Assembly (NCBI GenBank): GCA_018902385.1
Contig: JABSSW010000005.1
Coordinates: 1-64,000 of the forward strand
Length of the DNA: 64,000 nt
Source: Physcia stellaris
Lineage: Eukaryota > Ascomycota > Lecanoromycetes > Caliciales > Physciaceae
Reading direction: 5' to 3'
Shown here: piece by piece, positions 1-50,740 of the stretch
Layout: each line of letters begins with the position of its first letter
How positions within the stretch are numbered: the first letter of the stretch is position 1
Translations under genes and position numbers: made by a program
Notes under the pieces: model-generated
What the model was told of the DNA's origin: nothing
Databases searched by the model: none
What the model saw: the letters and a program-made list of their open reading frames with translations, nothing else

Positions 1-119
1 CGTGATTCGTAAATGCGTCAAAATCAAAATTAACATACAAAACGAAAACAAAATTTGAAACGAATCGAAAACAATATTCGATACAAAGACGAAAATTAAT
101 TTGATAAATCATATTTATG

Positions 120-2050
120 CGAAAAATTGAATTTTCGTCGTTTTGAAATTTTAAATTGTGATGCGATAACAATTGACAATTATCGTTTGAAAACGTATGA
201 CGTTTATTTCGTACAATTCGAAATGTCAAACGTCAAAAAAATTAATCGTTTTTTCGAGAAATCGTTTTTGATCGTGAATTTGAATTGAAATTTAACGTTA
301 AACATGTTTTGAATACAATTTCGAAAATCAAAATGAATTGAAACGACGACAATATCAAAATTTGACGTTGCAAAAAAAAATTTCATTTTCATCGAATCGT
401 ATCGAAAACATCGAATCAAAACAATTGATTATAAACGTTATCGATAACGAAGTCGAAACGTACAAAATGTTCGTACGAGTGTATATTGACAAACAATTCG
501 ACATGCATGAAATGCACGTTTCAAAACGAATTCAAATAAAATTTGTTTTGATTGAAATGAAAAAAATTCGATATCAAAATCATTTTTTCGATATTTTGAA
601 AACGTATGAAGAATTCGATAACGAAAATAAAATTTACGAATTGTCGAATCATGATTCAAACGATCATGTTATTGATTTAAAAAATTGAAAAATCGTCGCA
701 TTGAATCAATTTATTTTTATTTCGAAAATGAGTTTCGAATATTACGTATTTATATCGAGAAACATTTAATTAACGATTTTATTCGATTTTCACAATTTTT
801 TGCAAAAACGTTATTTTGTTCGTCAAAAAAACGATAATTTACGATTATGCGTGAATTACAAAAATTTTAATGTTTTCACGATAAAGAATAAATATTTTTA
901 TCGTTAATCGATAAAAATTTAAATAAATTCAACAAAGTCGTCAAATATATCAACATTGATTTGATTGTTGTTTATCATCGATTGCGTATCAAACATGAAA
1001 ACGAATGAAAAACGATTTTTCGTATTCGATATAATCATTTCGAATATAACGTATTTTTTTCGATTTCATTAACGTTTCGACGACGTTTCAAAATTTTATC
1101 AATAAAATTTTAACGATTCGTCTCGATATTAACGTCATTGTATATTTGAACGATATAATAATTTATTCGATAAACGTCGAAATTTATGTCGACGATATCA
1201 AATAAATTTTGATCGTTTTAAAAGAATAAATTATACATTGTTTTTGAGAAATGCAAATGATTGTTGACGAAATAAATTTTTGAATTCGTCGTTTTTTCAA
1301 AAAATTGAAAATGCAAAACAAGAAAATCGAAATTATTCAACAAAATCGATATTTCGCAACGTTTTCGACATCACGCAATTTTTCGATATCGTTAATTTTT
1401 ATCGACGATTCATTAAACATTTCAATAAAATTGTTAAATTTCTGATCGTTATGTTAAAAAAAATCACAAAAATTTCGAAAAATATTCGTAAACGTAAACG
1501 AAATCAAAATTGAAATCGCAACAAATTATCGAATATTCACATGTTTTTCGATCAACGAAAAACATCAAAAATTTTCAAACAATTTTGCAAAACATTTATC
1601 GAAATTCAAATTTTACGTTATTTCGATTTTTCGAGCGTTTTATTCGAATCGAAATCGACGCATTCGAAAAAATTTTTGAAATCATTTTATGTCAACATTT
1701 CGACGAAAATCAAAAGCATTTTGTTACGTATTTTTCGCGCAAATTGATTTCGATCGAATATCATTACGAAATTATGACAAAAAATTGTTGATTATTTGAT
1801 TTCGTTCAAACAATGAAAACATTATTTCGAAAACGCAAAAAGCAAATTTTTGTTTTTATTGATCATCGCAATTTGAAACAATTTATCAAAAAAACAATTA
1901 AATTTGTCGTCACGTCAAATTCGATAAAATTCAAAAATTGAATCGATATAATTTTTTAATCGATTATCGTTTCGATAACAAAATTTTGTTGACGAATTTT
2001 CAAAACAATTTGATCACATGATGATTATTGAAAAAAACGTAACGAATCGT
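120..2050 (+). pseudogene. Element A1 pol fossil: protease, reverse transcriptase, RNase H
   Basis: The order is that of Ty3/gypsy pol. A protease-like stretch lies at about 120-360. The reverse transcriptase follows at about 600-1,450: a piece reading LRLCVNYKNFN near 840 is the family's 'lRlCVDYR.LN' block, and FYRRFIKHFNK near 1,400 is its 'NFYRRFI..F' block. RNase H is at about 1,600-2,000, with the family's DA..K...VLcQ and SRKL..IEYHYEI blocks still visible. The matching pieces of A2 lie at about 23,830-21,950 on the other strand. Recognition rests on family motifs in separate open pieces; the gene is heavily broken. Confidence 0.82.
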
Positions 2051-2370
2051 CAAATTTTGAAACAATTGCAAAAATCAATCGCAAAATTCGAAACGTTTCG
2101 AAAAAATACGAATAAACGCGATCAAAATCAAAAACGCCGATATATTAAACGATTAAATGAATGCGAAACATAGCATGAAACGTCGAATTTAAATGATTTA
2201 ACAATCGAATCAATCAACGTTGTTTCGAGAACATTTGATTCAAAAATTCAAAACGATTCGAAATTTCAATCGGCGTTGTTTCAAAAACATTCGATTCAAA
2301 AAATTCAAAAATTGAAAATCGATCAATTGAACGAAAAAAACGTTAAATAACAAAAATTTTTGTGTTAAAT

Positions 2371-2589
2371 TGTTTTAAAAAATGTCTGAAGATAGATTTG
2401 ACAGATAAATAGTTGATAAAAATTATGTAATCGAACAAAAATTATCGTTTTAATTTTACGTCGAAATTAACGTGATTGATTTTTTTTGATTCGCAAATTT
2501 TGTTAAAAATTCAACATTTTGTTTTCTATTTGTTTCTGCAAACTTATTGTTTTCGTTTTTAATCAATAATACGTTCTATTCAAACACGA
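2371..2589 (+). repeat. Element B 5' LTR
   Basis: Direct repeat of 8,769-8,982. Shared landmarks are the ATAGTTGAT stretch near the start, GCAAACTTATTG in the last third and CAATAATACGT near the end. The 3' edge is approximate. Confidence 0.75.
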
Positions 2590-5320
2590 TTCAGTGAATT
2601 ACAATAAATTTTCAATTTTTATCGTTCGTCGTGATACGCGAGCGTTCAAAAATAAAATTAAAAAATCGATCAAATTTTCGTGAAAACAAACGAAACGAAA
2701 AGTTCTTTGACGAGACAAACGACGATTTTTCGTGTAATTACAAATCGAATTTACACGAACGACGAAATTTTCGACGATAAAAACGACGAAACGACGACGA
2801 CTTTTTATTTTTTTTTTTTACTTTTTCGAGATGATATTGAAATTTCGATTAATTTCATTTAAATCAATTTGAAAATTATTCGTCAAAATTTGAATAAACG
2901 ATAAACAAAAACGTTGAAAAATGCTGAACAATTCACGAAATCGTAATGAAAAAAACAATTCGTTTTCAAAAATTTTTTTTTATTTGAAAAAACGTTTTCG
3001 AATCAAACGACGATATCACGCATTTTTGAAAAAAAATTGTTCGTCAGTTGAAAATTGAATTCAGCATCATTTCGAAAATTTTTTTGAACGTGTTTGATGA
3101 TTTAAACATCGATCGAAACAAATATTTGATCGTTTTAAAATTTTTTCACGAGTTCGTCAAGTTGTTCAAAATTTCAAAAAAAAATTTATTCGATATCGAT
3201 AATATTTTTGAAAGATACGCGACAAATTTAAAACGTTCGAAACAAAAAAAAAAAACGAAATGAATCGATTCGTTGACAAACGTATTGAATATGACGATTT
3301 GATCAAATTCAAATGAAATTCGTCGTTTTGAACGTGTTTTCAATTTCGATTCAAATGAAAATTCAACAATATCGACGAAACGAAAAAATTTGTTGTTGAC
3401 GATTTTTCGTTACAAAATTCTATCAAATTTTCGAAAAAAAAAAACGAACAAAATTCAATTTCGATAAATTCACGAACGATGTTTGAATTTTGATTGAAAA
3501 AATCGTAAAAGATCAACGTTCACGATAAATTCACGATCAACAATGATTGATTACGAAATTTTCAAATTTAAATGATCAAAATCACGAACAATAATTGAAA
3601 AATTGAAAAAAAACAACTAAACATATTCAATTTCGTCGATACAAAAATCTGAACTATTTCGAAAATGAAATAATTGATCAATTTTTTCGAGAACATTTAT
3701 GAAGATTCAAATCATCAAAAAACATCGTCGAAAAAAAATTTCAATCATGTTCGAAAGAATTTTAAATTCTTTTATTCGAACTAAAAATCGTTTGAAATTC
3801 AAATCAATTTCGATCAATTATTTTGATGAAAAATTTAATGACAAATTCATCATCAAATCGTTGAAACAAATTTTGAACAATTCGTTTCGTCATCAATTTT
3901 CTATTTTGCTCGCGTGAAAGAATGACATTCAAGCAAAATGTACAACGATTTGATCAAATTCGAAAAAAAAAAAAATTCGAATTCGAATTTCAAAAAAAAA
4001 TGTTTTTCAAAACGACTTTTGTTGTTTCGATTGCAAACTTCGTTCAATCAAATCAAACGTCGATTTTCGTCAAATTTCAAAAACGATTATAAACATGATT
4101 CGATCGATCGATCAATTGATTTCGCGAACAAACTTCACGTCGAAAAATTCGATCACGATTGAAAATTCTGTCTCAACGTCAACAAATTTCAAAAACGTCA
4201 ATGACAAAATTACAAAATTCATCAATTGAATTTTGATATCGATTCGAGAAAATTTGATTCGAAAATTGACAATTCACGTCAAAGACGCGATTGATAAACG
4301 AATAAATTTAAAAATTTTCTTTATTCATTTGATAATATGTTTGATTTTTTTCATCAAACGATTTTTAGTCATCATTTGTACGTTATCATTCAACGATAAT
4401 AAACATAGATTAAAAACTTTAATAAAAATTGATGCAAATCGATTATGCGTTCATTGATAAAAAAATCGCGCAATTTGTATTTGCAAATGCTGAACATGAA
4501 ATTCGTATTTTTATTGAAATCGAAATTATTGATTGAATTTTGATTTTAATTTTTTTATAATTCACGCGATATATTTCAAATTGACGATAAAATTACATTT
4601 CGAATTGATCGTTTTTTGTTAATCATTGATTTCGATAAATTCGATAATTTTAGAAAAATCGTGAATGAACAAACATGAAATTATATTGAACATGATTTAC
4701 GATAAATTGATTTTTAAATCGTTCAAATGCAATCATCACGACAACATATTCAGTCAAACGACGCAAACTCGTCGTTTAAAACTTTCAAATCAAATCGTCG
4801 ATGAAATATATTTAAAAATTTTCGCGATGCAAAATTATCGAAAAATAATACAGAACACATACGACGATAAATTCTCGACAAAATAATTTTGTTTCGTTTC
4901 AAAATCAAATCTTTATTTTTATTGTTGAAAACGAATCAAATATAATCGATTCGAAATGCTCCGAATGTTCAATTCATTTTCAAAGTCGATATCGACGACG
5001 AGTCGTCAACAATCGAAAGTCAAATAATTCAAAAATTGATATTACGATTGTTACGAAGACGACATTCGTCAGAAAAAAAAATTGAAAAATCAACGTAATA
5101 AACGATGAAAAACGAAAAAAACAACAATCAAAATTTCGTTATTCTCAAAATTGAATTTTGACGATTCGATGAATATCGCAATGATTGATGCAATTTTTTT
5201 GCTTGTTGATCGATGTCAAAATCGAAAAAGCAAAACGTTCAATTTTTTCATTACGATCAATCAAATCGATTTCGCGTTCAAAACATTACAAACGAATTTT
5301 GAATCGTTAGAATCGTCGTC

Positions 5321-6620
5321 ATGATCAAAGAAATTTTTAAAACACGAACAAATCAAATCGATATTCGAACGCATAATGAAAAAATGTCAAAATATTTTCG
5401 TCATTTATCAAAAGTATTTGATTTTCAGAAAATCATCAAATTGTTTTTTCATAAATCATACGATCATAAAATCGAATTGTTAAACGATAACATTTTTTGT
5501 TTCGCAATCGAATGTATTTTCTATTCGAATCAAACTCAAATTTTTCAAAAATTTGAAAAAAATTTGCAAAAAAATTTATCGTATTTAATCAAACGATATA
5601 TGTTTCATTTGTTTTATTTGCGATCAAATTCAACGATCAATTACGTTTGTGTGTGAATTATCGTCGATTCAATCACATTACGAAACGCAATCGATATTTC
5701 ATTTTCTTGATTGAAAAAACTTTGATCAAAATTCAGAATTGCAAATATTTGATCAAATTGAATATCATATCAATTTTCAATAAATTTCGAATGAGTGAAA
5801 AAATGAAAAATTCATCACGTTCGTCACTTTTGAGATCGTATAAATATCGAATATTATCTTTTGAATTAATCAACGATTTCGACAAATTGACAACATACAT
5901 TGAATGATTTTTTTGTTCAATTTTTGAACGAATTTTGTCAAATTTATTTGAATGACATATTCATTTACAGCAAATTCAAGAAGAAACATATCGTGCACGT
6001 TCGAACAATATTGAAAAAATTCAAAAAAATCGATTTACAAATGAATATCGAGAAATGCGAATTTTTCAAAAAAAAATGATTTTTTTAGACGTTATATTTT
6101 CGATGAATGATTTTCGCATGAATTCAAAAAAATACAAATCATAATTGATTGAACACGTTTTATCAATTTCAAAAAGTACAAATTTTCGTGAATTTCGTCA
6201 ATTTTTATCGACGTTTCATTCGTGACTTTTCGAAGAAAATCAGAATTTTCATTCGAATGATCAAAAACTCGTAAAATTCGAATGAACTACGAAAACAAAA
6301 AAATTTTCAATTTATTAAAAAAACGATGATCGAAATTTTCATATTTCGTCATTACGATAAATCAAACAAGTCATTATTTTGAAAATCGATTTTTCAAATT
6401 ACGTTAATGCGAAAATTTTATCGCAATACGATGACGAAAAAATTTTGCATTTCGTTGTCTTTTACAATCGAAACATGATTTCAATCGAATGCAATTACGA
6501 AATTTCTATGACAAAAATTATTGATCATCATTCGTTGTTTGAAACATTGACGTTCAAAACTCGAAAAAAATTGACGAATCGATTAAAATTTTCATCGATC
6601 ACAAAAATTTGAAAATTTTC
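5321..6620 (+). pseudogene. Element B pol fossil: reverse transcriptase and RNase H
   Basis: The stretch entering the RT carries FRHLSKVFDF and KSYDHKIELL, matching the chromoviral pre-RT block. RT landmarks MCVNYRRFN, NRYFIFLIEKTL and LIKLNIISIFNKFRM follow at about 5,645-5,800. RNase H is at about 6,380-6,610, with [15 protein letters not shown] and ISIECNYEI. The same blocks occur in element D at about 58,190-58,580 and 59,210-59,300. It is broken in several places. Confidence 0.82.
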
Positions 6621-6949
6621 ATGATTTCGAAAAATTAATTTTCGTCAAGTTCGTTGAGCAGAAATTCTATCGAAATTCAATATCGTCATTCAGTTTCAAT
6701 CAAAATTCAAAACGTTAAAACAAACGTTTTGATTCGCATGTCGATTTCACGATTTAAAAACGATAGCGATGAACGACATCAATATAAAAAGCAGATGTTG
6801 TTCATTTCAAAACGATTCGAAATTCATGTCGTCGAATTTGACGAATCAATTTACGAACGAATTTCGTCGCAAACAAAGCAAACGACGATTGTCGAACATA
6901 TCGTGAAACATTCAATCAAAATTTCATTTTCGTGAATGAAATCAATTTA

Positions 6950-8345
6950 CGCGATTGTCAAAAAAAAGAACGATGTTTTATATTACAAGAATCGATTATG
7001 AATGCTTGTCGATGTCTTTTTTGCTCGTTGATTTTTTCAAAAAAATTCATGAATTTTTCGCATCGAGTCATTTTGAATTTAATCGTATGAAAAATTTTTT
7101 ACGTCGTGATTATTATTGATTCAACATGCGCAAAACAATTCGTCGATACGTACGTAATTGTCACGAATGTCAGCGAATTAAAATTTTCAAAAATCGTAAA
7201 AACGATTTATTCAATTCTTTGATCATATTTTTGCAACGTTGAACGAATATATTCATTGATTTCATCACGAAACTATTTGACGTTCACGATCATAATGTCA
7301 TTTGCACGATAATCGACAAATTTAATAAAAAACGTCATTATGCATTTTGTACAACGAAAAACGAAAACACGAATGTTGAAATCATAACAAAGATATTCAT
7401 TCAATACGTGTTTCGTATTCATGATTTGTTTTTTTTTATAACATTTGATCGAGATTTTCAATTCGTGTTTTTCGTATGACAAACATTTTGCAGAATTCTC
7501 GACATCAAATATAAATTTTTCACGATTTTTCATTCAGAAATTGATGATCAAATCGAGAAAATCAATCAAAACATCGAAAAACAATTGCGACAATATTGCA
7601 ACTACATGCAAAACGATTGAAATGTTTGATTATTTATGATCGAATTTGTAAACAACAACGCGATTTTTGCATTTATTGAATTGTCATCGTTTTTCGTCAA
7701 CAAAAACTTTCATTCACGTTCGAAGTTTTTCATCGAATTTTATCTCGTATGTACGACAAAAAAACGATTGTTGATCGTCAAAGCGAAAAATATCACAAAC
7801 ATCATGCAAAACATTTTCAACTACGTGCGAAATCACGTCGACGTAATTCAAAAACGCATGACAATTCAAATCAACAAACATCGCAAAATTGTGAAATACG
7901 TCGAAAAAAATTACGTTTTTCTGAATCGACGAAACATCAAAATCGCTAAATCATTTGACAAGTTCGATGACAAAAAATTGAGTTCGTTCAAAATGCTAAA
8001 ACGTCGAAACAATTTTTATCAGCTCGAGTTATTTGAAACAATGCGAATTTACGATGTGTTTCATTGTTGATTTTTCGCAAAATTTTTGTGATTTTTCGAA
8101 AATCAAATCAACGAATCATTCGATTCTGTTATAATCAACGAGAATTTCGAGTGAAAAATGAACGATATTCTGAAGTTTCGATATCATTACAATCGTTTTC
8201 AATATCGTGTCAATTGATCAAGATTTGATCACATAATCGAACGTGATATTACGTCGATAACGATGAGTTCGATAACGTTCGCGACGTGATAAAAGATTTT
8301 CATCGAAATCATTTCATCGTCGCAAATTCAAAATCGTTTAAATCA
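6950..8345 (+). pseudogene. Element B integrase and chromodomain fossil
   Basis: At about 7,080-7,200 there is an integrase zinc-finger region, with a piece reading RRYVRNCHECQRIK that fits the C-terminal CxxC half of the HHCC motif. The core integrase is very eroded. At about 8,155-8,340 a segment reading ILKFRYHYNRFQYRVN has the look of a chromodomain start ('ILd.R....lqYlVkW'). A chromodomain after the integrase defines chromoviruses, whose integration it can steer to heterochromatin. The same layout occurs in D. Confidence 0.65.
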
Positions 8346-8768
8346 AATATTTTCGTCGTCGATATTCAAAATTTTTTTGCAAATCGTCGTCGTTTTCGAA
8401 AAAAAAATCGTCGTTTTGATTTTTATTGAAATTACATTCGATTAGAATTTGAAAATTTCAAATTCGATTTTCATTTAATTTACGTTTTCATTTTTCGACT
8501 TTTTCGATTTTCAGTTTTTATTATCGTTTCGATGTTGTTTACAGTCAAAATTTACATCGCATAAAGAGTTGAATCGTGTCAAAAACATTTTCAAAGATTG
8601 TTGTCAAATTTTATCGAACGTTGAGACGATAACAAAGCATCAGAAAATAAAATGATGATCGTGAAATTTTTGAATCTTGCAACATTCAAATCAATCAACA
8701 AGATTTTCAAAATTTCGAAACAACAACGAATCGTCGAAACGACGTTCGCGAAAAAGAAGAAAGAATAG

Positions 8769-8982
8769 TGTTACGAACATGTTTGACAAATAAATCTGAC
8801 AAATAGATAGTTGATATGATATGTGATCGAGCAACGAATTATGTCTTAATTTTACGTCGAAACTAGCGTGATTTGAAATTTGACGTCGCACATTGTTTGC
8901 AATTTCAACATTTTGTATCTATTTGTTTTTGCAAACTTATTGTCTTCGTCTAGTTAGTCAATAATACGTCTATTTTTCATGA
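8769..8982 (+). repeat. Element B 3' LTR
   Basis: Begins TGTTACGAACATG, nearly the same terminus as C2 (TGTTACGAACGTG) and D (TGTGACGAACGTG). It pairs with 2,371-2,589 and retains more unmutated sites, such as CTAG and AGTTAG, than its partner. Confidence 0.75.
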
Positions 8983-9179
8983 TAAAATCAACGATTGTAT
9001 TTGAATGCGCAATGCATAAAATTCGAATACAAATTGTTTTACGAAAAAACGACATATAACGACGAATCAACATTTTCATTGTTGAATTTCGTTCGTGATT
9101 TGATCGTTAAAAATCAATTCGTTTTTGAAATATGTCGAAAATTAATTATTTCGAAAACAAAAACAAACAATTGACAACA

Positions 9180-10820
9180 CAAAAATGAATTTTTGTATTA
9201 CGACGATGTCGTTTACATTTCAAAAAATTTGCATGAAAACGTTATTCGTGCACATCACGATAATTCGTTCGTTGATTATTTCGATATCGAACGAACGTTA
9301 AAATTGATACGTCGAAAATATTATTGATCGAATCAAAATTTTATCGAAATTTTTGAAATGCGACAACAAATTAAAAAACATTGTAAAACATGCGTCGTTT
9401 GCAAACGAAACAAAATTGCACGATACAAATCATACGACGAATTTTTTTTTTTTGATTTTTGAATTTAAATGAATTGATTTTTTCATGAATTTCGTGACAG
9501 AATTTTTTTCAAATAAAACATGAAATGAAACGATTTACGATTCGATTTTAGTGATTGTGAATCGTTTAACGAAAATGATTCATTACATATCAATAATTAA
9601 AACGATTTTCGCAAAAATTTGATCGAAATTTTATTTCGCGAAATCATTCGATTTCACGATTTTTTTTCGTCAATCGTCATCGACAGAAATTTCATTTTCA
9701 TGTTCAAATACAACGACGATTGTGTTACGTTTTGAAAATCAAACGTAAATTGTCAATCGTTTTTTATTTTCAAATTGATTTAACAAATCGAGCGAATAAA
9801 CAACGTCATGAAATAATTTTTTCGTGTTTTCGTCAATTTCGAGCAAAATGATTGAATAAAATTGTTGTTAATCATGATCGAGTTCGTTTATAACAACAGC
9901 AAACATGCATTTACAAACATTTTTTCGTTCGAAATTATGTTTGAATATTCATTTCGCATGTTTTTCGAGAAAACATGAAACAAAAAAATTAAATTCAAAT
10001 TCGCAAAAAAAAAACACGCTGAACATTTAGTTGAATTATTTCGAATATTGAAAGACAATTTATTCGTGACACAACAACAACAAACGATGTATAAAAAACG
10101 AAACGCACAAAATCAATGTCATATAACGTCGAAAATTACGTGAATTTGAACGATAAAAACATCAAAATTAAACGAAACAAAAAATTGAAATGAAAATTTT
10201 TTGAATCATTTCAAATTTTAAAAATTATAAAAAATCAAATTTATCGTTTAGATTTATTCAAACGTTGACGCATTCACGACGTTTTTCACGTTTTTTTTTT
10301 GAAAAAGTTCAATTTTAAAAAAAAGAAAAACGCGCATACGTCACATTTTTTTGAATTTTTTTATCAAATTGAAAATATCGAATTCGACGAAAACATGAAA
10401 ATAAAAATCACGAAAAAATTTTATGAAATCGAAATCATCAAAAACAACAAAATTTTCAAAACAAATGAAATTTCAAACAAATTTTACAACGAATTCGATT
10501 TTTATTATTTCGTGAAATGAAAAAATTATGAAAACGCGATTTGAAAATTTGTATCGTTTGTCAAATATTTTCGAAAAATTTTGCGACAATTTCATAAAAA
10601 AAATTCAAAAAAATTTGATGTTAATAAAGAAACAAATCATCGAAAATCAAAAAAAAAATGAATTGAAATATTTATTGCATGTTAACACATTTTCGTTTTC
10701 AAAAATTTTGTGTGTTATTTATTGTTTAGAATTTACGACGCATGAAAAATTGAATTGTGTCAAAAATATTTTCAAAAATTGTTGTTCGATTTGATCGAAC
10801 GATAAATCGTTGAATAAAAA
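9180..10820 (+). pseudogene. Element A1 integrase, chromodomain and conserved tail fossil
   Basis: At about 9,235-9,420 open pieces carry AHHDNS, RTLKLIRRKYY and KTCVVCKRNKIARYKSYD. These fit the HHCC finger of gypsy integrase and the 'CQ.sK..R..PyG' stretch that follows. A 'LNDKNIK...KKL' stretch at about 10,140-10,190 and the segment YRLDLFKR near 10,240-10,265 match the C-terminal integrase region. At about 10,370-10,620 a chromodomain-like segment follows, with the partial FYEIEIIKNNK and FDFYYFVK. A tail piece at 10,736-10,795 is shared with B and D (see findings). A2 has the equivalent at about 21,420-19,800 on the minus strand. Confidence 0.72.
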
Positions 10821-11299
10821 ATGTGAAATGAAATAAAAAAAAATTTCGAAAATTTGAATATCAATGCGATCGCGATTAATGAACGTTTATCGCGTTACAC
10901 ATTTTTTCATGATATCGATGTTGATATTCGAAATAAAAAAATAAAAAAATAAAAAAATGTTCGAATTCAAAATTTTTTGTCAACAAGTCAATTGTCAATT
11001 ATCATATCGAAAATTGTGAATGATACGAAATCAAACATTCGATTATGAAAACAGCAAACAATTGATTCATCAAATTATATTTTTTTGAGTCATTCAAGAA
11101 AATGTTTTTTCAAATTTTTAAGATAAACTGATTATTGAATTCGAACAAAAATATTTCGAAATGCGAAAATCACGATCATAATGATTTTTCAAATCAATGC
11201 AAAATCAAAACAAACAGAACACGTCAAAACAAACAAAATACGTCAAAATTTTTGTTAACATGTTGATTTCAAGAAATTTCGATGCTTAAAAAAAACGTA

Positions 11300-11619
11300 T
11301 GTAAAAAATAAAAATTCAAAATTTTCGAAAATGCGATTCGCATTTCGTCAAACAATTCGATTATCGAAATTCGAATGATTTCGAAAAGAATCAATTTCAA
11401 TCATTTTACAATTCGATCAACGATAAATTCAACAACGTTCATATTGTCAATCGAAGTCGTTCGAATTCGTACGATTGAATAGATAGAATGTGAATAAAAA
11501 GCAATTGCAAAACGTAGTTTGTTCTGTAACGATTAATAAATCAATATATTACATTTCAAATTATACATCTTTGATGTCAATAATTCATTAAACTATATTA
11601 TTTCTAGTACGAGTTTTAC
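11300..11619 (+). repeat. Element A1 3' LTR (320 bp)
   Basis: Starts TGTAAAAAATAAAAATTC and ends AGTTTTACA. It is the reverse complement of 18,970-19,289 and 25,660-25,978 with only scattered C/T or G/A changes. Its AGATAGAATG and CTAGTACGAG stretches show it is a little less mutated than the A2 LTRs. Confidence 0.88.
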
Positions 11620-14560
11620 AATATCGAATTTCGCAATTTTATCAAATTCAATTTTAATTCTGAAATCGTTTCGAAAAGAATTTTTTTTAAAAAATTTCGA
11701 GTTTGTTTGTGTTTTTATATCAAAATTCAACATAATGTTTTCGATTCACGATTGATTCGATTGATTAATTCAATAATTTCAAACAAATGAAATCGAATTA
11801 AAAACGCGAAAATCGACAATGCGAAATTTCACGTACAACATTCACAATCGATATTCGAAATTGTTTTTTACGATGATCAATATTGCAATTAATTGTTCAT
11901 GATTTAAATTGTTCAATCAAATAATATTGTTGATTTAAAAACGAATTTATTATTTGCACGTACATAACAAAATACATTTAAATACAACAACAACAAAAAC
12001 GTACAAAAATTATTCAAAAAACGCAAAATTATTGTAAATAATTTCAAAAATATATCGAACGACGAAATCGATACAAAAAACGACAATAACAATAAAAATT
12101 CAAAGAAAAACATAAATATTACATTAAAACGACGTTTGACAATTATTGTAAATCAAATTATTCGTGAATGATTCAACAACGTATTGAATCATTTACAATT
12201 TAAAATTTCGATATCAATCGATATTTTCAACACTTTTTTTATCAATTATGAAAAAACAATCGATATTAAATCGAAAAAAATCAAACGATTTCATTTTTTT
12301 ATCAAAAACGAACAATCGAAAATATCGACGTGATATAAATCGACATTTTTTCGACAAAATTTTTTGTTACATAAACGTTCGAAAAAATATCGATTACACG
12401 ATAATATTGAAAAATTTATTAAACAACGAAAAAAAAAATAATTTTTTTTAATAATGAATATGCATATTTGATAAAACGATTTTTTTTTTTTTCAAACATT
12501 AATATTCAATGAATATATTAAAATCAAATTAAATATTTGAACAAAATATAATTTCGATACGATCAACGATTTTATTTTGAAAATATAAAAAATACAAACG
12601 AATGTTTGAACGCAACATAAAACAATATTCGAAAATTATAAATGTATTGCAAAATTTCGAAACGCGAATCGTAAAATTATTTACATAAAAAATATACAAA
12701 TACATTAACGTCAACACAAATGTACGATTCAATTGACATTTTTCGATTTAATACAATTTACAAAATCAAAAACATAATAATTTCGTATTATAAATTCGAA
12801 ATTATTGTCAATTTTTATCAATTGATTGCGAAATTTTTACACATTTATGTTTTCATTCGTTTTAATTACGAAAATTTTGAATCGAAAATAAAGAAATACA
12901 TGTCAATTATCACAATAAAAATTAACATATATTGTGTAATTTATTTTATTTATTGTCGATATTATAATTATCGCGATTTACGATATATTTTTCAAAAATT
13001 TCAAAAATGATTTCGATTTTCAAATGTACATCAAAAACATATTCAATAAATTTTGTTTTGTTATGATATTTTTTGTAATCACAATCATACATCATGCGAT
13101 TAAAAAAATTCGCGAATAATAAAAAACAAACATGATAATCGAAAATTTAACAATGAAAAATATGTTATATGTCATTTCAATTTTTTACATTATTAACATG
13201 CAACAAACAATTACGAATTTTACATGTTAATTTAAAAAAAATTGAATTTTCGTGTTCAAAACGAAATTTGCAAATATTTTCAAAACAAAATCAAAAATCG
13301 AATTACAATCAATGCAAAAAACAATAAAATTACAAAATTTATTTCATTAAAATATGATTATTTTATCGAAACGATCAAAATTTTGCGAAACAACAAAAAA
13401 ATTGTTTTACGCGTTTTTATATCAAACAATTTTCAAATTGATATTAATAATTCGAATATAATCGATGAATTCGTTAATCGAAACATTAATGTCAATTATA
13501 ACAATATTATATCATATTTTTTGAAAAGACAAATTTGACACGATTTCGAATTTTCGTTTTGTTTTCAATTTTTTTACAAACAATGATCGTGTGATATCAT
13601 TTGTTGAAAATTCGAATATCGATTTATTAAAAACAAAAAAAAAACGAAAAATAAAAAAACGAATTTAATACGAAAACGAAAAAAATTGAAAAACGTGTCG
13701 AAAAATTGATAAATCGAATTTACACATACGATGTCAATATATTTATTGTTTAATTATAAATAACAAAATATAAAAAACGCAAATTTTAAAATCGAATCGT
13801 CGAAAAAAATAAAATTTATTATTTTATTGAACAACAAAACGTTCAAAAATAAACGTTCACGTACGATTTGAATTGACAAACATAATGTAAAAAAATGAAT
13901 ATACAAAACGAAACAATATTTGAATATATTTTGCATCGAAAATTTTGATTTATCAAAACGAATAAAAATTACAATTCAATAAAAAAAAATTGCAAATAAA
14001 TTATAAAAAACGTTTCGAAAAATCAATAATTATACAAAAAAACGTGATTACGAAAACGATTTAATATAAATTAAATACAAATTTTGTATTTCGTGTTTGA
14101 TAAAAACAATCAATCAAAATTTAATTGATAATTTAACACGAATCGATAAATTCAATGATAAAAAAACGTTAATAATCATTTTAAAAAAAAAAAATCGAAA
14201 CAATCGCAAAAAAAATTTGATATCACAAAAAAAATACAAAATTTCAATAATTCAAATAAATAAAAAACATGAACATTAAAAACATAAAAAACGAAATAAA
14301 TGAAAAAATCGTTAAAATTAACAATGATATAATTGATTCGTGATACGCACGAAACAACAACAAAAAAACAATAAAACGATCAATCGAAAAAAAATTTAAA
14401 TGTTTTCGAAAAACTTGATGAGTTTCGAAACATTTTGAAACAATTAAACGTTTCAAAAATAAATTTTGAATCAACAATCAACGATTTAAAACGAATTTCA
14501 ATTGTTTGAAAATTGTTTTTAACGAGTCATTGTTGATTTGAAACAATGAAAAGCAATAAT
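11620..14560. other. Unidentified AT-rich block between A1 and the ordinary island
   Basis: Nearly 3 kb with the same lack of CC, CT, GG and AG as the transposons, and an even higher A+T content. Open frames exist (for example 12,720-13,010 and 13,242-13,538 on +), but their products lack Gly and Pro, and I recognise no domain. I found no second copy in this window and no LTR. The mutation pattern implies it was once repeated in the genome, so an old transposon is likely. Confidence 0.5.
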
Positions 14561-14579: not shown

Positions 14580-15276
14580 ACTCGAGACGAATCTCAAGCG
14601 TCAAAATCAGTCGAACACTTTTCGCGACGCGATATAAAAGGAAGTCACGCTAACTAAATACAGAAGAAAGCTAGCCGGTCAGAAGTCAAGCAGATGGCAG
14701 GAGTTCCCAAGCACCAACCAGCCCACATACCGTGACATTTTTGCGATTAAGCGCCGTAATCTTAAAAGGCTTAAAAATGGCATATTTCGCTTCTTCGTAC
14801 GTGTGGTTAGGCAAGGATCATTTCCGTAAAGTAACAAAACGTTAGCACACAGTTCCCATCAGCTCTCATTATCGAGTTTCTTGCCTTATTGCCAACCAAT
14901 CGATCGCTAAAAGTAGAACTAACCGGTGTAGCTTATGTCTTCTAGGCGATGCTGGTCGAGCAGCAGTAGGAATCAATCGACGGAATGAAGACCGGATCTG
15001 GGTCTCCTGCAGGCGCTTGACTGAAACGCGAAGGATGCCAAAGAACAGGAGCATTGTTATGTCGGCTGCATTAGTTCAAGAGAGACAGCTCCCCAAGGAC
15101 TGCATTGTATTAAACTGTGCCCTATGAACGCATCCTGTGAAACCTTCGCCGCCTGGGCTGAAATCGAGGATTGAATCTATAAGCACTCATTCCACTCTTC
15201 ACTTCATACGTGCACCTGGTGCGTGACCACACTGCCGAAAGCTATTGTATTGCTCATGTGCTGGCCGCTAAGAAGC
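14580..15276 (+). promoter_or_regulatory. Upstream region of the membrane-protein gene
   Basis: Composition changes abruptly near 14,580 from eroded DNA to ordinary fungal DNA with all dinucleotides present. A TATA-like TATAAAAG lies at 14,633-14,640, about 640 bp before the chosen ATG, so it would imply a long leader or an unseen upstream exon. I see no convincing ORF here; a 61-codon minus-strand frame at 14,869-15,054 has no recognisable content. This stretch probably holds the promoter and 5' leader of the 15,277 gene. Confidence 0.35.
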
Positions 15277-16135
15277 ATGTTGTCGAATTTTGCCAACCTC
15301 ATTTTGTGCCTTGGCATCCAGTCTGTCGTTCAAGCTCGGTCGGGCAGCTCTCAATCTGGTTCTACCATCTCGCAAGCCATAACTTGCTATGATTTCACCG
15401 GCTTGTCCTTCGTGAATAACACGCAATGCTCGGGCTCGCAAGTATGCTGCAAAACCCAGGCCCAATGTTTGCCCAACAAGATGTGCCTCGGAGAAAATGG
15501 AGAACTCATCCGTCCCACCTGCGCAACACAGCAGTGGAGCAATGAAACATGTTCACCGCTGTGCCCATACTGTATGTAGCAATGATACCATACGGGATTT
15601 CCTATCATGAGAAAAGGGACAGAAGAGCTGACGGGATGAAGCAAACGACTCGGGATTCCTTCCACGACTGCGGATGTGTACCGATGGAAGCTATTGCTGC
15701 AATAATGACGCGACGTGTTGTTCCAAGAAGGAAGGCAAATTCTTAGATCCAAGCGGCAACATCATCTCTGATCCCTATACAACGAGAACACCGGCAACCA
15801 AGGTTTCGCTCGCTACCGTCACAGCAACGTCCGTTGCCGCTACAACGGTGCATGCTGCACCAGTAGCGAGTAGGTCCCAGGGCTTATCAGCAGCCGCCGA
15901 AGGCGTGATAGGGGCTCTGGCTGGAGTTCTTGCACTCACCTTGGTTGCGGCCGGCCTTTTGGTCTGGAGGAAACGACGGCAGATCCACAGCCTGAATTCT
16001 AAGTCGACGAGTATGCAAGTATCTCCGCAGGTACACTACTCCTACCCGCTCGATGAAAATGCAAAAGGGGTTTTTGTTGAATTGCGAGGTGGTGGGGCGA
16101 CGAACTCACAGACGCGACGGGAGCTCGAGTCCTAG
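15277..16135 (+). CDS. Secreted-ectodomain, single-pass membrane protein, two exons, function unknown
   Basis: Exons 15,277-15,571 and 15,642-16,135 give 262 residues. Residues 1-20 are a signal peptide ending VVQA. The ectodomain (about 21-140) is cysteine-rich, with CYDFTG, SQVCCKTQAQC, NKMCLGENG and CTDGSYCCNNDATCC, and N-glycosylation sequons NNT, NET and NDS. A Ser/Thr/Ala-rich stalk runs to about 184, one membrane helix (GVIGALAGVLALTLVAAGLL) spans about 186-207, and a basic WRKRRQ stop-transfer precedes a 55-residue tail. The layout matches a common Pezizomycotina class of uncharacterised cysteine-rich surface proteins; a receptor or wall-sensor role is only a guess. The intron 15,572-15,641 (70 bp) has GTATGT, a CTGAC branch-like site about 10 nt before its AG end, and keeps the phase. 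An in-frame ATG at 15,256 is an alternative start, but 15,277 gives the cleaner signal peptide. It is the only ordinary gene between two eroded repeat blocks, and I see no mutation damage in it. Confidence 0.78.
15572..15641 (+). other. Intron of the membrane-protein gene
   Basis: GTATGT donor directly after CCCATACT, GCTGAC branch-like motif at 15,627-15,632, acceptor AAG at 15,639-15,641. Seventy bases is typical for filamentous fungi. Removing it joins the upstream CSPLCPY frame to the downstream NDSGFLPRLRMCTDG frame without a stop; without splicing the first frame ends at once. Confidence 0.75.
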
Positions 16136-16640
16136 CTTGAGCTTTCGAGATTATTGTCTGGATGACTATGGACGATGGCCGTGGCCTCCGGACGGTTTAC
16201 TGTGGCCTTTTCGACGACGATAAACCTGTCTTAGCAAGATTCTATGGATCTTAGATACGATATCTAGGCGAAATTATATGCACCCTGGCTACATTACCGT
16301 AATAGTTCCGTGCCATTACCGGGAAGCATTCAACGTATCTCCTAAAAACTCATGCTTGTACGGAGTTTCTTTAACATTACGTACAAGCAGGCCCTGGATT
16401 TTTTTAAAATTCCCTTTTACTTGGATTCTAGCGAGGTTTTGCGGCCCGCGGGTTAACTTTTCAGCTGTGCTTAAAAGTCTTGCGAGCATTATTCTGTTTC
16501 AGGCAGGTAGTAGTACCTAACGGCGCGACATCGACCGAGCAACTAAGCTCTACTTGTTGATGTTCAGCAGAGATTTGATTCTTGAGCGGCTTGAGCCGCT
16601 AGAGAGACTAATCACCTGCTGTGGTAAGGTAGGGGACTGT
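16136..16640. other. Intergenic sequence downstream of the membrane-protein gene
   Basis: Ordinary composition. An 80-codon open frame at 16,278-16,520 has no recognisable feature. A short inverted repeat (CTTGTACGG at 16,355-16,363 and CGTACAAG at 16,380-16,387) could form a hairpin and may mark a 3' processing region, which is speculative. No gene called. Confidence 0.4.
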
Positions 16641-16649
16641 ACGGAGTAG

Positions 16650-16806
16650 TACGGAGACCTGCACCAAAAAAGCAGCAGCTGCCCCCAGCAGCCCACCTTT
16701 GGCAGCTCAGGCACAGCATTATTTTAGGTGCTTACTGTACTGCTGGCCCCTCCCGATTACCGCCTGTTTTTAGCGCATATCAGGACTTTTGGTGCGGGTC
16801 TCCGTA
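16650..16806. mobile_element. MITE-like element with about 20-bp terminal inverted repeats
   Basis: The left arm at 16,650-16,669 (TACGGAGACCTGCACCAAAA) and the reverse complement of the right arm at 16,787-16,806 differ at one base. The arms enclose about 117 bp rich in CAGCAGC and CCCC, with no coding capacity. The outermost TA on each side could be a TA target duplication, as in Tc1/mariner-derived MITEs, which would make the core 16,652-16,804. Extra TACGGAG copies flank it at about 16,640-16,646 and 16,831-16,837. It is not eroded like the surrounding repeats. Confidence 0.6.
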
Positions 16807-16929
16807 GTATGTACTACTACGTACGGAGACTGAACCATTGGTTTCTAACCCTACGGGGACATCAATTGGAAGCAAATATCGCAATTTTCGCAATACGAGT
16901 GCATTACATTCTCGCATACTACGAATCAG

Positions 16930-18964
16930 ATCAAATCGTTGAATTTCGATGTGCGAACTTTTGCTTTTCGTCTTGTATAAATCAATTTTCTTTTTTCTGA
17001 ATTGTAAAAACGTACATGATTTTTGTTTGAAAACTTCTTGATTTCATCGTGTTCGTTGATTTTTACAATGTTCGATTTTTGCATTGTAATTGAAAATGAA
17101 ATCATTTTTATTCAAATTGAAAATATTTTACATACAAAAAAAAATAAATCATTCGAAATTTTTTAAAACATGCACGTTTCGTTCGAAAAAAATAATAAAA
17201 TAACAAATAAATGAAATTTTAATTATTTGATATCGAATTCTAATTGTAAAAAATTTATGCAAAATTTTATTATAAAATTAAAACGTGAACAAAATTAATG
17301 ATGTCAATTTTTGTACGTTTTTGTTGTATTACGTATTCGACATGTTATATGTTAATGCGTCAAAATCGCAAAAAGTAAAAATTTTTTTGAAATCAAACGA
17401 AAATTGAAAAAAAAATCTTCAAATTAATTTGTTTGATTATTATACGAATCATTATACAAATCATGATGTAAAAATCAAAACGTTGACGAAATAATGTTTA
17501 AACGCAAATTACGTGATTAAATTTTATATACACAAATCATGTTTTTACACAATAAAAAATTAATTTATCGTTGTTCAAATCGCAAAATTTCGACAGAATT
17601 TTTACGTCGAATTAGATTTTGATTGAATCACACATCGCAATGATTCGATTTTCGACGAATATTCATGATTTATAAATAACGATTTTTTTTGCGTTTTTTT
17701 TTTTTTTATCACAATTTCAAATTCTATTCGAAATTTCGATTATCGTTTGACAAAACATTTTCAAAATCACAACGTGAATTGTAATATGAATTTTTGTGAC
17801 ATCGTTAACATTTTTTGATTAAAAAATTCGCAACGATGAACATGACGTTTCAACAAACGATCGATACGTTGTCGTTTTCAATTCAAACGTTGAATTTCAA
17901 AACGATGTATCGTCAAAATCACGAAATTTACAAACAAATCATTGTTCATTGCGAAATGAAACAATTCGTTCAATTAAATTTCAAACAACAATGCAAAATA
18001 TTGATTATAATAATCATTATTTTGTTTGAATGTTCGAAGTCGAAACAATCAAAATTGCAACGAAATCAAATCAAACGTCATGAGTTGAACAAAGCACGAA
18101 CAATTTTCAAAATTTTCGAAAAAACGAACTCGTTGAAAAATGAAAATAAAAAAATTTTGAATTATGTTTTGAGATTGCGCGCGACGTAAATAAAAATAAC
18201 GTTTCGAATTGTTTTGTAATCATGTTGCGAAAAAAAAAATTTGACGAAAAAAATGAATTGAAAATACACGAACGTTGATATAAAATAGAAATTGCAAATT
18301 GTAATAAAAAAAAATAACAAATATAAAAATTGATCGTCGTTTTGATTTATGAAAATTCTGAATTCGAAAATTGTTTTGTTATGAAATGTATTCGCAATAA
18401 TTGTTATACACAATATAATTGTTATTTTTTTTCAGATTCGAATTTTATACAAATCATGTAATTGAATCAAAAATATTATTTAAAATTTAATATGTTTTTT
18501 ATTTGCAATCATAATCGTCAAACATTTATTATATAATAATTTAATCAAATCGTTCAATCGATATTATTCAATTAAATTTCACGTCGTTTTTATTGTTTCA
18601 CGTAAACGATCGTAATTCATTTTTTCGTCATAATGATTTTGTATGTAATTTTTCATTCAATTTTATACGATTTCAATTAAATTCAAATCGAAAAAATATA
18701 AAAATCATTGTATGAATTGTATGTTTCGATCATCGAATTTCGTTATTGTAATTCGAACAATGTGTTTTTTGATTTCGATTTGTATAAAACGAAATTTTGA
18801 ATGCATGCGAATTCAATTTGTATTTCGAATTATTATTTGTTCATTTAACAATTAAAACAATTATATCATCAATAAACGAAAAAATACGTTGACAATATAA
18901 TTTCGATATAATAATTTTTCATTTTTTTTCTCAAAACAAACAGAAATTTTTATTCAAATTATCG
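16930..18964. other. Unidentified AT-rich eroded block between the island and A2
   Basis: The mutation signature resumes gradually between about 16,870 and 17,040. A 124-codon frame at 17,815-18,189 (+) has no recognisable domain and lacks Gly, Pro and Trp. I see no LTR and no second copy in the window. Pre-insertion this block was contiguous with 39,250 onwards, because A2 and G are inserted between them. Confidence 0.45.
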
Positions 18965-18969
18965 AAAAT

Positions 18970-19289
18970 TGTAAAATTCGTATTAAAAATAATATAATTT
19001 AATGAATTATTGACATCAGAAATGTATAATTTGAAATGTAATATATTAATTTATTAATCGTTACAAAACAAATTACATTTTGCAATTGTTTTTTATTTAT
19101 ATTTTATTTATTCAATCGTACGAATTCGATCGATTTCGATTAAAAATATAAATTTGTTGAATTTATCGTTGATCGAATTGTAAAATAATTGAAATTGATT
19201 TTTTTCGAAATCATTCGAATTTCGATAATCGAATTGTTTGACGAAATGCGAATCGCATTTTCGAAAATTTTGAGTTTTTATTTCTTACA
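18970..19289 (-). repeat. Element A2 3' LTR
   Basis: On the plus strand it runs from TGTAAAATTCG to TTTCTTACA, so it has TG...CA ends. It is a direct repeat of 25,660-25,978. Confidence 0.92.
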
Positions 19290-25200: not shown

Positions 25201-25659
25201 TTATTTAATTTAAAATAAAATTTTAACATATGCGATTTTGATTAAATTCGAAAATTAAATTATATGATTTACGTTGTTTTCGTAAATTGATTTTTCATTT
25301 GTTTGCAATATTTTTTTATTTTTTGTAATTTTTTTTATATTGATTCGATGTTGTTTCGATAATTTTCATAACGAAAAAATTTTCAAACAAAATCAAAAAC
25401 AAAAAAAAAAAAAAAACAAATAAAATAAAATTGCAAATTTCGAACGTTCGATAATTCGAATTTGAAATTTTTTTTTTTTTGTGATTTTTTTCGATTTGTT
25501 GTTTGTAATAAATCAATCAAAAAAATAAATCAACATTTTCGACAAATTTAAAAAAACAAATTATTATCAAAATTCGACATGATGTATGCGAAACAACAAA
25601 ATTGTATTTTGTTAAATATACACGAATAATATTATTTTGAAATATAATAACGATTAAAA

Positions 25660-25978
25660 TGTAAAATTCGTATTAAAAATAATATAATTTAATGAATTAT
25701 TGACATCAAAAATGTATAATTTGAAATGTAATATATTGATTTATTAATCGTTACAAAACAAATTACGTTTTGCAATTGTTTTTTATTTATATTTTATTTA
25801 TTTAATTGTACGAATTCGATCGATTTCGACTGAAAATATGAATTCGTTGAATTTATCGTTGATCGAATTAGAAAATGATTGAAATTAATTTTTTCGAAAT
25901 TATTCGAATTTCGATAATCAAATTGCTTAACGAAATGCGAATTGCATTTTCGAAAATTTTAAATTTTTGTTTTTTACA
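25660..25978 (-). repeat. Element A2 5' LTR
   Basis: Direct repeat of 18,970-19,289, ending TTTTTTACA on the plus strand. The right-hand target duplication AAAAT follows immediately, and element G begins nine bases further on. Confidence 0.92.
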
Positions 25979-25987
25979 AAAATGCAA

Positions 25988-26181
25988 TGTTATGCGTAAA
26001 GTCTAAATTGATTGATTTAAAAACTATGAACGACAAAATGTCAATTTATGTACAATAATTTCGAATCAATTATCTGATCATCATTCATTTAATATGAAAT
26101 GACGACAAAATTTTTGTCAAAAATCATGTCAAAATATTTGATTTAAATTCATATCATCTAATTTAATTTTGTGTCATAACA
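25988..26181 (-). repeat. Element G 3' LTR
   Basis: Direct repeat of 39,060-39,249. The central TTATGTACAATAATT and TTTAATATGAAAT stretches and both termini are shared. Confidence 0.92.
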
Positions 26182-26403
26182 ATTTGTCAATCAAAAAAAA
26201 AAAAACTCAATGTTTTTATTGAATTTCATGTTTTATTATCATGCGTAATCATATCATGTATCAATTTATTTTTTTTCGTTTTTTTTGTCGTTGCAATCAT
26301 CAAAATTTTGCGAATGATTGAATTCGTATTGTTCAATGAAATTTTGAAAATTCTGTAATTCGAAAATAAATCGTCATTCGTCATATTTCGATTCATAATC
26401 GAT

Positions 26404-28490: not shown

Positions 28491-28681
28491 TGAAATTTTG
28501 TTAAAATTTTTTGCAATAATCGATATGATTTTAATTTTTCAATTGAAAAATTATTCATTACAATTTTTGCGAATAGATTTTGCGAATGATTTTTTGTTGA
28601 ACGATGATTGACGTAAAAATAAAATTTTGCGACGTTATAACGCGTTCGTTTTTGAACATAAAACGCGACAAAATTTCGTAA

Positions 28682-33027: not shown

Positions 33028-33224
33028 TATTGAACGAATGTGAATGACTGTCATTGCATTACATGCAATACTATCGAAGTTACGTACAGGAGTAAGTACA
33101 ATTTGATTGCGCAAATGTTTTTAGTAATGATCGATTTTGACACGTCTCGCTTAGTCAATCAATCAGAAACTTTTGATCACATTCGTGTCTATTTTTCAGT
33201 CTCCTGTCATCGTACTTTCCAACA
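33028..33224 (-). repeat. Element K 3' LTR
   Basis: 197 bp, in element orientation starting TGTTGGAAAGTACG, a Ty1-like terminus. It differs from its partner at 25 positions, all transitions; at 24 of them this copy carries the A or T. Confidence 0.94.
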
Positions 33225-33330
33225 CTCTCACTCGGTGACAATTATGTTCATTGCACATTTAAATGCGGCTCTCACTGAGCTGATCCTTACACTGATGTAA
33301 TCTTTACTGACTGCTGGTTTCTGCATCGGC

Positions 33331-33750: not shown

Positions 33751-33774
33751 AACAGTTCTGACGATTGAAAAAAT

Positions 33775-38254: not shown

Positions 38255-38669
38255 ATCGACATTTCATTTTGATTTTCGAAGATCATTCGGCAACAGTCTC
38301 GACACATAATTTGAGTCGACGATCATTCAGATTTCTTCGTCGATGAATCGTTCGCTTCATTAACTTGAATCATTTCTCGCAATTCTGACGAGTAAGGATA
38401 TCGCAAATTCGACGCGCGTTGAATTTGCTGACCTCGAAATCGTTCATGATGCGTGATGTGATATGTAAGTATGTATTCGAATGTAAATTCTCTCTATTGT
38501 CGTGTGCTTTCTCGTGAAGCTGTCGATCGAGTCGTGTAGATTTTTTTACTGCTTTAACGCGATCGAACGATGAGTCCTTTTCACAGCTGTTTGATCCTCG
38601 TGATTTCGTGGTCGAACGATTGACGCTGATTATTTTCAGAAAGCTTATGCTAATCCGAATCTCATAATT

Positions 38670-39249: not shown

Positions 39250-39254
39250 TGCAA

Positions 39255-49936: not shown

Positions 49937-49941
49937 ATTTC

Positions 49942-50735: not shown

Positions 50736-50740
50736 CGTTT

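Follow-up and report, generated by a model that had tools for sequence, protein, structure and literature searches.

Cytosine loss before pyrimidines in the window

The eroded blocks of the window (the whole stretch of DNA analysed, 64,000 nt of Physcia stellaris contig JABSSW010000005.1; Table 1) probably consist of retrotransposons, along with other DNA, that a RIP-like genome defence has mutated through an enzyme reading a pyrimidine 3′ of the cytosine. The changes, transitions alone in two LTR pairs, lie on both strands, show 3′-pyrimidine specificity and an order of rates, approach saturation and spare the islands. Erosion had been placed by a sequence-only reading at 1–14,560; it is present there but continues far past this tract, to ~62,755, interrupted by an island (~14,580–16,930) and by C2, a copia element that is younger and half eroded (33,028–38,866). 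In a window scan, borders between eroded and ordinary DNA are 100–200 bp wide and sharp at the islands. Within the 64-kb window, retroelements are mutated and gene-like islands spared. Between islands nearly all DNA is eroded, whether transposon or not. Of ten single ORFs searched against Pfam, three showed domains, and read-through frames gave better detection. Neither ORF of the 14,580–16,930 island matched Pfam, the window had no Rfam match, one gypsy pol frame had no match in a PDB sequence search at E up to 1, and a pattern derived from the C2 LTR had none in viral contigs or in prokaryote genome contigs.

Table 1 Eroded blocks, islands and LTR elements in the window.
Feature	Position	Strand	Details
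B1, old eroded block	1–14,560 (analysed as 1–14,500)	.	GC 0.25; degraded gypsy domains (RNase H, H2C2 integrase, Tf2-1-like SH3; Pfam)
Ordinary island	14,580–16,930	.	GC 0.49; all dinucleotides near expectation; gene-like ORF pair, GTATGT intron donor at 15,572
B2, old eroded block	16,990–33,000	.	GC 0.23; degraded gypsy element with chromodomain, minus strand, domains ~26,320–28,470 (Pfam)
C2, copia-type LTR retrotransposon	33,028–38,866	-	Partial erosion; nested within old eroded sequence; Pfam Retrotran_gag_2, gag_pre-integrs, RVT_2
C2 target-site duplication, left	33,023–33,027	.	TTGAT
C2 LTR, window-left copy	33,028–33,224	-	197 bp
C2 LTR, window-right copy	38,670–38,866	-	197 bp
C2 target-site duplication, right	38,867–38,871	.	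TTGAT
B3, old eroded block	38,960–62,700	.	GC 0.24
Second LTR element, older	46,989–49,936	.	Within B3 coordinates
Second element LTRs	46,989–47,171 and 49,754–49,936		183 bp each; TG...CA ends
Second element target-site duplication	46,984–46,988 and 49,937–49,941		ATTTC
Ordinary island	62,760–64,000	.	GC 0.49; cut by window end; Mannosyl_trans3-like ORF starts at 63,407

Bases 1–300 contain no CC, GG or CT, two AG and 23 CG, matching the earlier count (more than 20 CpG). Across 1–14,560, 95.6% of C are followed by A or G and 91.1% of G are preceded by T or C, much as had been described; observed/expected ratios are 0.01 for CC (2 found), 0.00 for GG (1 found), 0.13 for CT and 0.22 for AG, with 1.22 for CA, 1.18 for TG and 3.84 for CG. 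All contexts are kept in the ordinary island at 15,277–16,135 (CC 0.85, CT 1.07, CA 1.18, CG 0.92), again as first read.

The three old blocks were analysed together as 54 kb (1–14,500; 16,990–33,000; 38,960–62,700). Among C/T positions, C is retained at 6 of the 7,022 followed by C (B1, 3/2,029; B2, 1/2,008; B3, 2/2,985), at 560 of 21,491 before T (B1, 234/5,675; B2, 100/6,396; B3, 226/9,420), at 47% before A and at 50% before G; in the two gene-like islands C occupies 45–55% of such positions whichever base is next. Against an island baseline of 3.5 kb, which is partly coding and may differ from the elements' own starting composition, depletion is 12- to 31-fold for CpT and ~300-fold or more for CpC, far from island values, while CpA, at 82–89% of island level, is not depleted as CpY (CpC and CpT) is, and CpG survival is 1.07–1.15 of that level; both CpA and CpG therefore persist, as had been proposed. 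In mononucleotide shuffles of the concatenated blocks (54,252 bases), CC+GG number 1,576 ± 33 versus 7 present (6 if listed by window position; z −48), and CT+AG 4,959 ± 49 versus 560 (z −90). The longest run free of CC and GG is 13.5 kb (38,861–52,398). CpG per thousand dinucleotides is nearly equal in the old blocks (61, 58 and 55) and islands (57), so arithmetic accounts for most of the high observed/expected ratio of CpG. The context bias of the eroded blocks is real, and stronger than originally claimed.

LTR pairs and old copies

The LTR pairs of C2 and of the second element share target-site duplications and were identical at insertion. The C2 pair differs by 25 transitions and no transversions. 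Sites lost/intact are CpC 16/2, CpT 8/16, CpG 1/18 and CpA 0/31, the intact counts omitting two C sites with differing 3′ neighbours and the base at either LTR end (Fisher's test: pyrimidine versus purine 3′ base, 8e-10; CpC versus CpT, 4e-4). The left LTR carries 24 of the 25 losses of C (or G), 13 on the plus and 11 on the minus strand, placing the changes on both strands, and the right LTR one. Relative to the islands, the C2 interior keeps 26% of CpC and 58% of CpT, with CpA and CpG not reduced. The second pair shows six transitions (four CpT, two CpA; three per copy) and no transversions, so that both pairs differ by transitions alone (25/25 and 6/6), as in RIP. Within the contig, erosion forms an age series.

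Slower loss at CpA and CpG had been read from R1 and R2 and from the C2 LTRs. It stands between the old copies R1 and R2 (30 CpA and 4 CpG differences), but the C2 pair, with a single CpG difference and no CpA difference, hardly shows it. Old copies differ at 169/719 CpA and 59/714 CpG (p 1e-15) and by 175 transversions; these counts omit gapped sites, sites with a poor neighbourhood within 4 bases and sites with differing 3′ neighbours. C2 also contains an internal, diverged repeat pair (33,330 and 33,542; 74% identity, 43 transitions, 10 transversions), with C/T differences at CpY in 27/43 and at CpA or CpG in 16/43; it was not pooled with them. The old-copy CpA and CpG differences, the transversions, this internal pair and the LTR imbalance (24 versus 1) all count against a RIP-like reading, as does the lack of a visible RID or DIM-2 gene in the window.

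Rates, simulation and coding consequences

Fitted rates follow the order CpC > CpT >> CpA > CpG, with CpT ~20 to 45 times CpA and CpG slowest. CpC and CpT, first taken as joint targets, are indeed both lost, with the refinement that CpC goes ~3x faster than CpT. Simulated CpY saturation of island sequence matches the old blocks with an RMSD of 5–7 per thousand, versus 35–65 for other models: CpA-type erosion is off by 51–65 and context-free loss by 35. Seven gypsy domain stretches (438 codons, one overlapping stretch excluded) contain seven stops, all TGA, no W, P or G, and 17 Q; in C2, reading TGA as Trp lifts the RVT_2 score from 68.9 to 86.3 bits. LTR pairs, old copies, fit and codons thus agree with the C-to-T process originally proposed, acting at CpC and CpT on both strands and slowly at CpA and CpG.

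Detection by RIP indices

A CpA preference with a TpA-rich product is usual, but not universal, in RIP. Neither is seen in the eroded windows, where TpA/ApT averages 0.46, and RIPper thresholds flag none of the 108, bearing out the expectation that indices based on CpA and TpA would miss this erosion. The usual tests are blind here because the target preference is nearly the reverse of that of classical RIP. A CpY index, (CpC+GpG+CpT+ApG)/(TpC+GpA+TpT+ApA), was scanned over 127 windows, 124 of which were assigned to three GC classes and three to none; its means are 0.025 in eroded DNA (108 windows), 0.285 in C2 (11 windows) and 0.885 in islands (5 windows). This simple index separates eroded windows from islands, with C2 intermediate.

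Discussion

A defence that directs C-to-T changes at repeats, through an enzyme recognising a pyrimidine 3′ of the cytosine (CpC > CpT >> CpA > CpG), would nearly invert RIP specificity and is a reasonably likely source of these blocks. The enzyme would be a DNA cytosine-5 methyltransferase, most likely of the RID/Masc1 or DIM-2 class, acting on repeats, presumably in the sexual cycle. It would work on both strands, yielding C:G to T:A transitions wherever a pyrimidine lies 3′ of the cytosine, and repeated rounds would lead to an end state almost without CpY, with half of G+C gone, TpA not enriched, and CpA and CpG kept. Trp codons would become TGA stops and Gln codons would remain unchanged.

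Comparison with known systems draws on excerpts of the cited papers. As in Neurospora crassa RIP (RID, with DIM-2 for heterochromatic repeats), transposons carry C:G to T:A transitions on both strands in an AT-rich mosaic, gene islands are spared and the 3′ base sets the preference. The Neurospora order, in contrast, is CpA>CpT>CpG>CpC (PMC5496416), with low CpA and TpA/ApT above 1.1 in RIP regions (PMC6714961), the reverse of the kept CpA and low TpA/ApT seen here. Trichoderma reesei RIP likewise has a species-specific dinucleotide preference, there shown in crosses, but CpA and CpG are its best targets and CpC its worst (PMC5496416). Magnaporthe, Botrytis, Sclerotinia, Colletotrichum truncatum and Anisogramma share CpT-to-TpT changes in transposons with the window, yet the excerpts always report CpA loss alongside and never name CpC as main target: CpT-biased C. 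truncatum families have TpA/ApT ~1.6 (PMC6180176), CpA and CpT are both dominant in Anisogramma (PMC10998396), and Amselem et al. give CpT together with CpA (PMC4352252). The signatures of Microbotryum, rusts and Tuber are also context-fixed C-to-T biases in transposons, but at CpG, the context best preserved here, and are tied to Dnmt1-family enzymes (PMC4352252).

Among the matches listed in the literature searched, excerpts named no fungus with CpC or CpY as main target, though Clutterbuck 2011, the main survey, or the OcculterCut paper may contain an earlier description; those from PMC3441728, PMC8545091, PMC5555474 and PMC11969663 contained no CpY precedent. The excerpted near precedents are CpT dominance in aligned sequences from control fungi capable of RIP (PMC7882544) and in Tad1 of Neurospora (PMC2621366), and CpC-to-TpT double changes alongside classical CpA RIP in Monilinia (PMC8959702). 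In Rhizoctonia solani AG8, the single-dinucleotide SNP class of highest density is CpC, which is less dense in repeats than across the genome (PMC4014442). A survey published in 2025 concluded from 1,239 fungal genomes that a CpA preference is common to RIP-like defences (PMC12543289), and standard RIP tools look for a loss of CpA with a gain of TpA (PMC6714961).

Action directed by heterochromatin is an unlikely alternative, in which silent chromatin is methylated by a DIM-2-like enzyme preferring non-CG sites, and gradual deamination of 5mC before C or T then affects the whole compartment. A 2026 review states that Neurospora DIM-2 methylates mainly non-CG sites, with CpT preferred, and that older heterochromatic repeats depend on it for RIP (PMC13297926); the erosion of inter-island DNA irrespective of transposon content also fits. 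The fastest context here, however, is CpC and not CpT, and the right C2 LTR adjoins eroded DNA yet took a single hit. The window data do not cleanly separate this mode from repeat-directed action.

A distorted CpA-type RIP, with early CpA loss masked later or a CpT component added, is very improbable. CpT-dominated alignments are indeed known from RIP fungi, and old copies differ more at CpA than at CpG, but CpA is largely kept, TpA/ApT is low, no CpA was lost in the young C2 LTRs and simulated CpA erosion misses the profile; CpA-type RIP is accordingly rejected for the window.

Dipyrimidine UV damage, an AID/APOBEC-type deaminase, methyl-CpG decay and context-free AT drift would all produce C-to-T changes, and CpC and CpT are dipyrimidines. 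UV and APOBEC-type action depend on a cytosine 3′ of a pyrimidine, or on 5′ context, and would be expected to deplete TpC. These two are rejected because TpC exceeds expectation (ratios 1.54 and 1.38) and the 5′ base has little effect on loss. Methyl-CpG decay, which removes CpG, is rejected on context, CpG being the best-kept dinucleotide, and context-free drift on its simulated misfit, so that causes of this group are highly unlikely in the window. An assembly, chemical-conversion or contamination artefact, which the extreme composition might suggest, is extremely unlikely, given that both strands changed inside one LTR, that islands on this contig are untouched, that the target-site duplications are intact and that erosion follows an age series.

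Near-total loss of C before pyrimidines thus scores as RIP-negative here. If the pattern is genome-wide, RIP would be under-counted and this species would have a natural variant of RIP-enzyme specificity, against which the residues that RID or DIM-2 use for target recognition could be mapped. If a repeat-directed, 3′-pyrimidine defence is indeed at work, its product would be AT-rich, TpA-poor and CpG-rich and unseen by surveys based on CpA and TpA; some "RIP-negative" fungi may therefore be efficient mutators, and TpA-rich DNA would not be the sole signal for silencing of mutated repeats.

Composition of the window and sequence context of cytosine loss

Across the 64-kb window, AT-rich blocks (GC 0.18–0.31 per kb) alternate with two gene-like islands, and the contents include gypsy elements with a chromodomain and a Tf2-1-like SH3, one copia element and a GTATGT intron donor. 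In the right island a short Cys-rich ORF-like stretch (63,100–63,420; read by eye) lies upstream of a Mannosyl_trans3-like ORF, whose match (E 6e-4) is below the curated cut-off. The elements, the intron donor and this ORF are in keeping with a filamentous ascomycete as host.

Main features of the window
Feature	Position	Strand	Characteristics
Old eroded block B1	1–14,500
Gene-like island 1	about 14,580–16,930		GC 0.49
Old eroded block B2	16,990–33,000
Copia element C2 (partly eroded)	33,028–38,866	minus	197-bp LTRs; TTGAT on both sides
Old eroded block B3	38,960–62,700
Second, older LTR element	46,989–49,936		183-bp LTRs; TG...CA ends; 5-bp target-site duplication ATTTC
Gene-like island 2	62,760 to window end		GC 0.49

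Cytosine before a pyrimidine (CpY) is nearly lost from the old blocks. The sequence-only reading had described C-to-T erosion at CpC and CpT with survival of CpA and CpG; its dinucleotide counts for bases 1–300 were reproduced exactly on recounting. Direct counting found CC twice and GG once in 1–14,560, with a similar near-absence in B2 and B3. In the 54,252 bases of B1, B2 and B3, CC+GG numbered 7 in the joined string (6 if listed by window position) against 1,576 ± 33 expected from shuffling. When C was counted against T on both strands and sorted by the 3′ base, C was kept before C at 3/2,029 (B1), 1/2,008 (B2) and 2/2,985 (B3) sites and before T at 234/5,675, 100/6,396 and 226/9,420, with 45–49% kept before A and 48–52% before G; the islands kept 47% before C, 49% before T, 55% before A and 45% before G. 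The 5′ base had little effect on survival before T (B1–B3: 0.015–0.039 after A, 0.017–0.051 after G, 0.015–0.041 after T), 5′ C being rare there because such a C is itself a CpC target. Variation with the 5′ base was modest in C2 (survival before T 0.18–0.40). The CpY sites that survive in the old blocks tend to cluster: counts per 250 bp have a mean of 2.58, a variance of 7.45 and a maximum of 18, and the clusters at 8,500–9,000 and 49,000–49,750 perhaps mark younger inserts.

A four-rate fit gave CpC:CpT rate ratios of 3.0 (C2), 3.3 (B1) and 2.6 (B3); the fitted CpC rate of B2 was unbounded because CpC is exhausted there. Fitted rates were 0.00–0.14 for CpA and 0.00–0.01 for CpG; within the old blocks the CpT rate thus exceeds that of CpA by a factor of about 20 to 45. 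When all CpC and CpT sites in the island sequence were mutated in silico, the product had GC 0.250 (old blocks, 0.234–0.252) and a dinucleotide profile within an RMSD of 5–7 per thousand of the old blocks. Models with unchanged islands, with saturated CpA, with saturated CpG, with a canonical-like mixture or without context were all off by 35–65 per thousand.

LTR pairs and old repeat copies

As TTGAT flanks both sides of C2, its LTRs derive from one insertion and were then identical. They now differ at 25 sites, all transitions, with no transversions or gaps; oriented as C loss, 16 are CpC, eight CpT, one CpG and none CpA, while two CpC, 16 CpT, 18 CpG and 31 CpA are unchanged in both copies (Fisher: pyrimidine vs purine, 8e-10; CpC vs CpT, 4e-4). 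The left LTR carries 24 of the mutated sites (13 plus-strand, 11 minus-strand) and the right only one, despite eroded DNA around both, indicating that exposure was patchy even inside a single element. The C2 interior keeps 26% of the island level of CpC and 58% of that of CpT, with CpA and CpG not reduced. Plus-strand GG exceeds CC in most 300-bp bins of 33,225–38,669, which would reflect codon composition or else mutations that favour one strand. A diverged repeat pair within C2 (33,330 and 33,542; 74% identity, 10 transversions) has a less pure pattern, with 27/43 C/T differences at CpY and 16/43 at CpA or CpG, which we take as probable old divergence of an internal repeat.

The LTRs of the second element differ by six transitions (four CpT, two CpA; three per copy) and no transversions, and retain no CpC and no shared CpT. 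The minus strand of this compact element (2.9 kb) carries long open frames with C..C...H....H, which we take to be a zinc-finger-like motif; its longest frame had no Pfam match, and a related frame lies at 52,209–53,317 on the plus strand. Across five old repeat pairs including this one (clean sites only), differing sites were 0/0 for CpC, 72/75 for CpT, 169/719 for CpA and 59/714 for CpG, with 175 transversions; CpA differed more often than CpG (p 1e-15). Within the duplication formed by the old copies R1 and R2, a 12-bp minisatellite (AAAACATTCGAT) occurs at 40,915–41,014 and 45,018–45,117, with 8.3 copies at each.

Coding consequences

GpG-to-GpA mutation converts TGG (Trp) to TGA, and CpA-type RIP converts CAA/CAG (Gln) to TAA/TAG. 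Seven gypsy domain stretches from the old blocks (438 codons) contain seven stops, all TGA; Gln is encoded 17 times, and Trp, Pro and Gly not at all. Counted in all frames together, TGA (3,222) is about as frequent as TAA (3,095; TAG, 111), so the one-sided chance of 7/7 is 0.008. The stretches were detected with TGA read as Trp, and the chromodomain is seen only with that reading; without the chromodomain stretch, 5/5 stops are TGA (chance 0.03).

Reading TGA as Trp instead of X raised scores for RVT_2 (68.9 to 86.3 bits) and gag_pre-integrs (16.2 to 23.4) of C2, H2C2 of the B1 gypsy (48.2 to 53.4) and zf-H2C2 (19.7 to 25.3), added 0.8 to 3.0 bits to five other domains, and newly revealed a chromodomain (27.4 bits) and an SH3 domain of retroviral type (20.2). 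Four domains scored lower: a second-frame RVT_2 stretch (24.8 to 23.6 bits), RT_RNaseH (44.9 to 41.8) and SH3_Tf2-1 (21.8 to 21.1) in the B1 gypsy and, in the B2 gypsy, an H2C2 that has no TGA (31.3 to 29.2). Control readings (TGA as Arg; TAA/TAG as Gln), applied to four of the five domain-bearing frames, gave no gain above 1.0 bit.

Comparison with known fungi and possible mechanism

The order of preference is given as CpA>CpT>CpG>CpC for Neurospora, and as CpA~CpG above CpT, with CpC last, for Trichoderma reesei (PMC5496416). Amselem et al. describe signatures at CpA, CpT and CpG in ten genomes, in a main text that does not use the term CpC (PMC4352252), and Badet and Croll report a CpA preference common to RIP-like defences across 1,239 genomes (PMC12543289). 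In alignments CpT is known to rank second among the targets and at times first (PMC2621366, PMC7882544, PMC6180176, PMC10998396); in the cases for which indices were examined, its loss is accompanied by high TpA or by loss of CpA. The literature searched, a scope outside which the Clutterbuck 2011 survey lies, showed no fungus with CpC or CpY as first target.

The erosion pattern itself is certain, and there is good support for a RIP-like process whose preference is nearly inverted. Shared with RIP are the restriction to transitions, action on both strands, mutated retroelements, spared islands and narrow borders. Candidate enzymes, as in ascomycetes, would be RID/Masc1 and DIM-2. We consider the likelier candidate to be a RID-class enzyme whose target recognition has changed; the main rival is DIM-2 or heterochromatin-directed action, and a review ascribes a CpT preference to DIM-2 (PMC13297926). 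Because the 3′ base governs the loss and the 5′ base matters little, a C5-methyltransferase reading CpN is favoured over an AID/APOBEC-type deaminase. Such deaminases are 5′ readers.

RIP indices

Indices built on CpA-to-TpA had been expected to miss this erosion, and did: RIPper thresholds flagged 0/108 eroded 1-kb windows. Taken singly, TpA/ApT ≥ 0.89 was reached by 0/108 (mean 0.46) and a substrate index ≤ 1.03 by 3/108 (mean 1.38); among five island windows, none passed the RIPper thresholds and one passed each single criterion. Surveys using such indices are blind to this erosion because CpY mutation yields TpC/TpT and GpA/ApA, not TpA.
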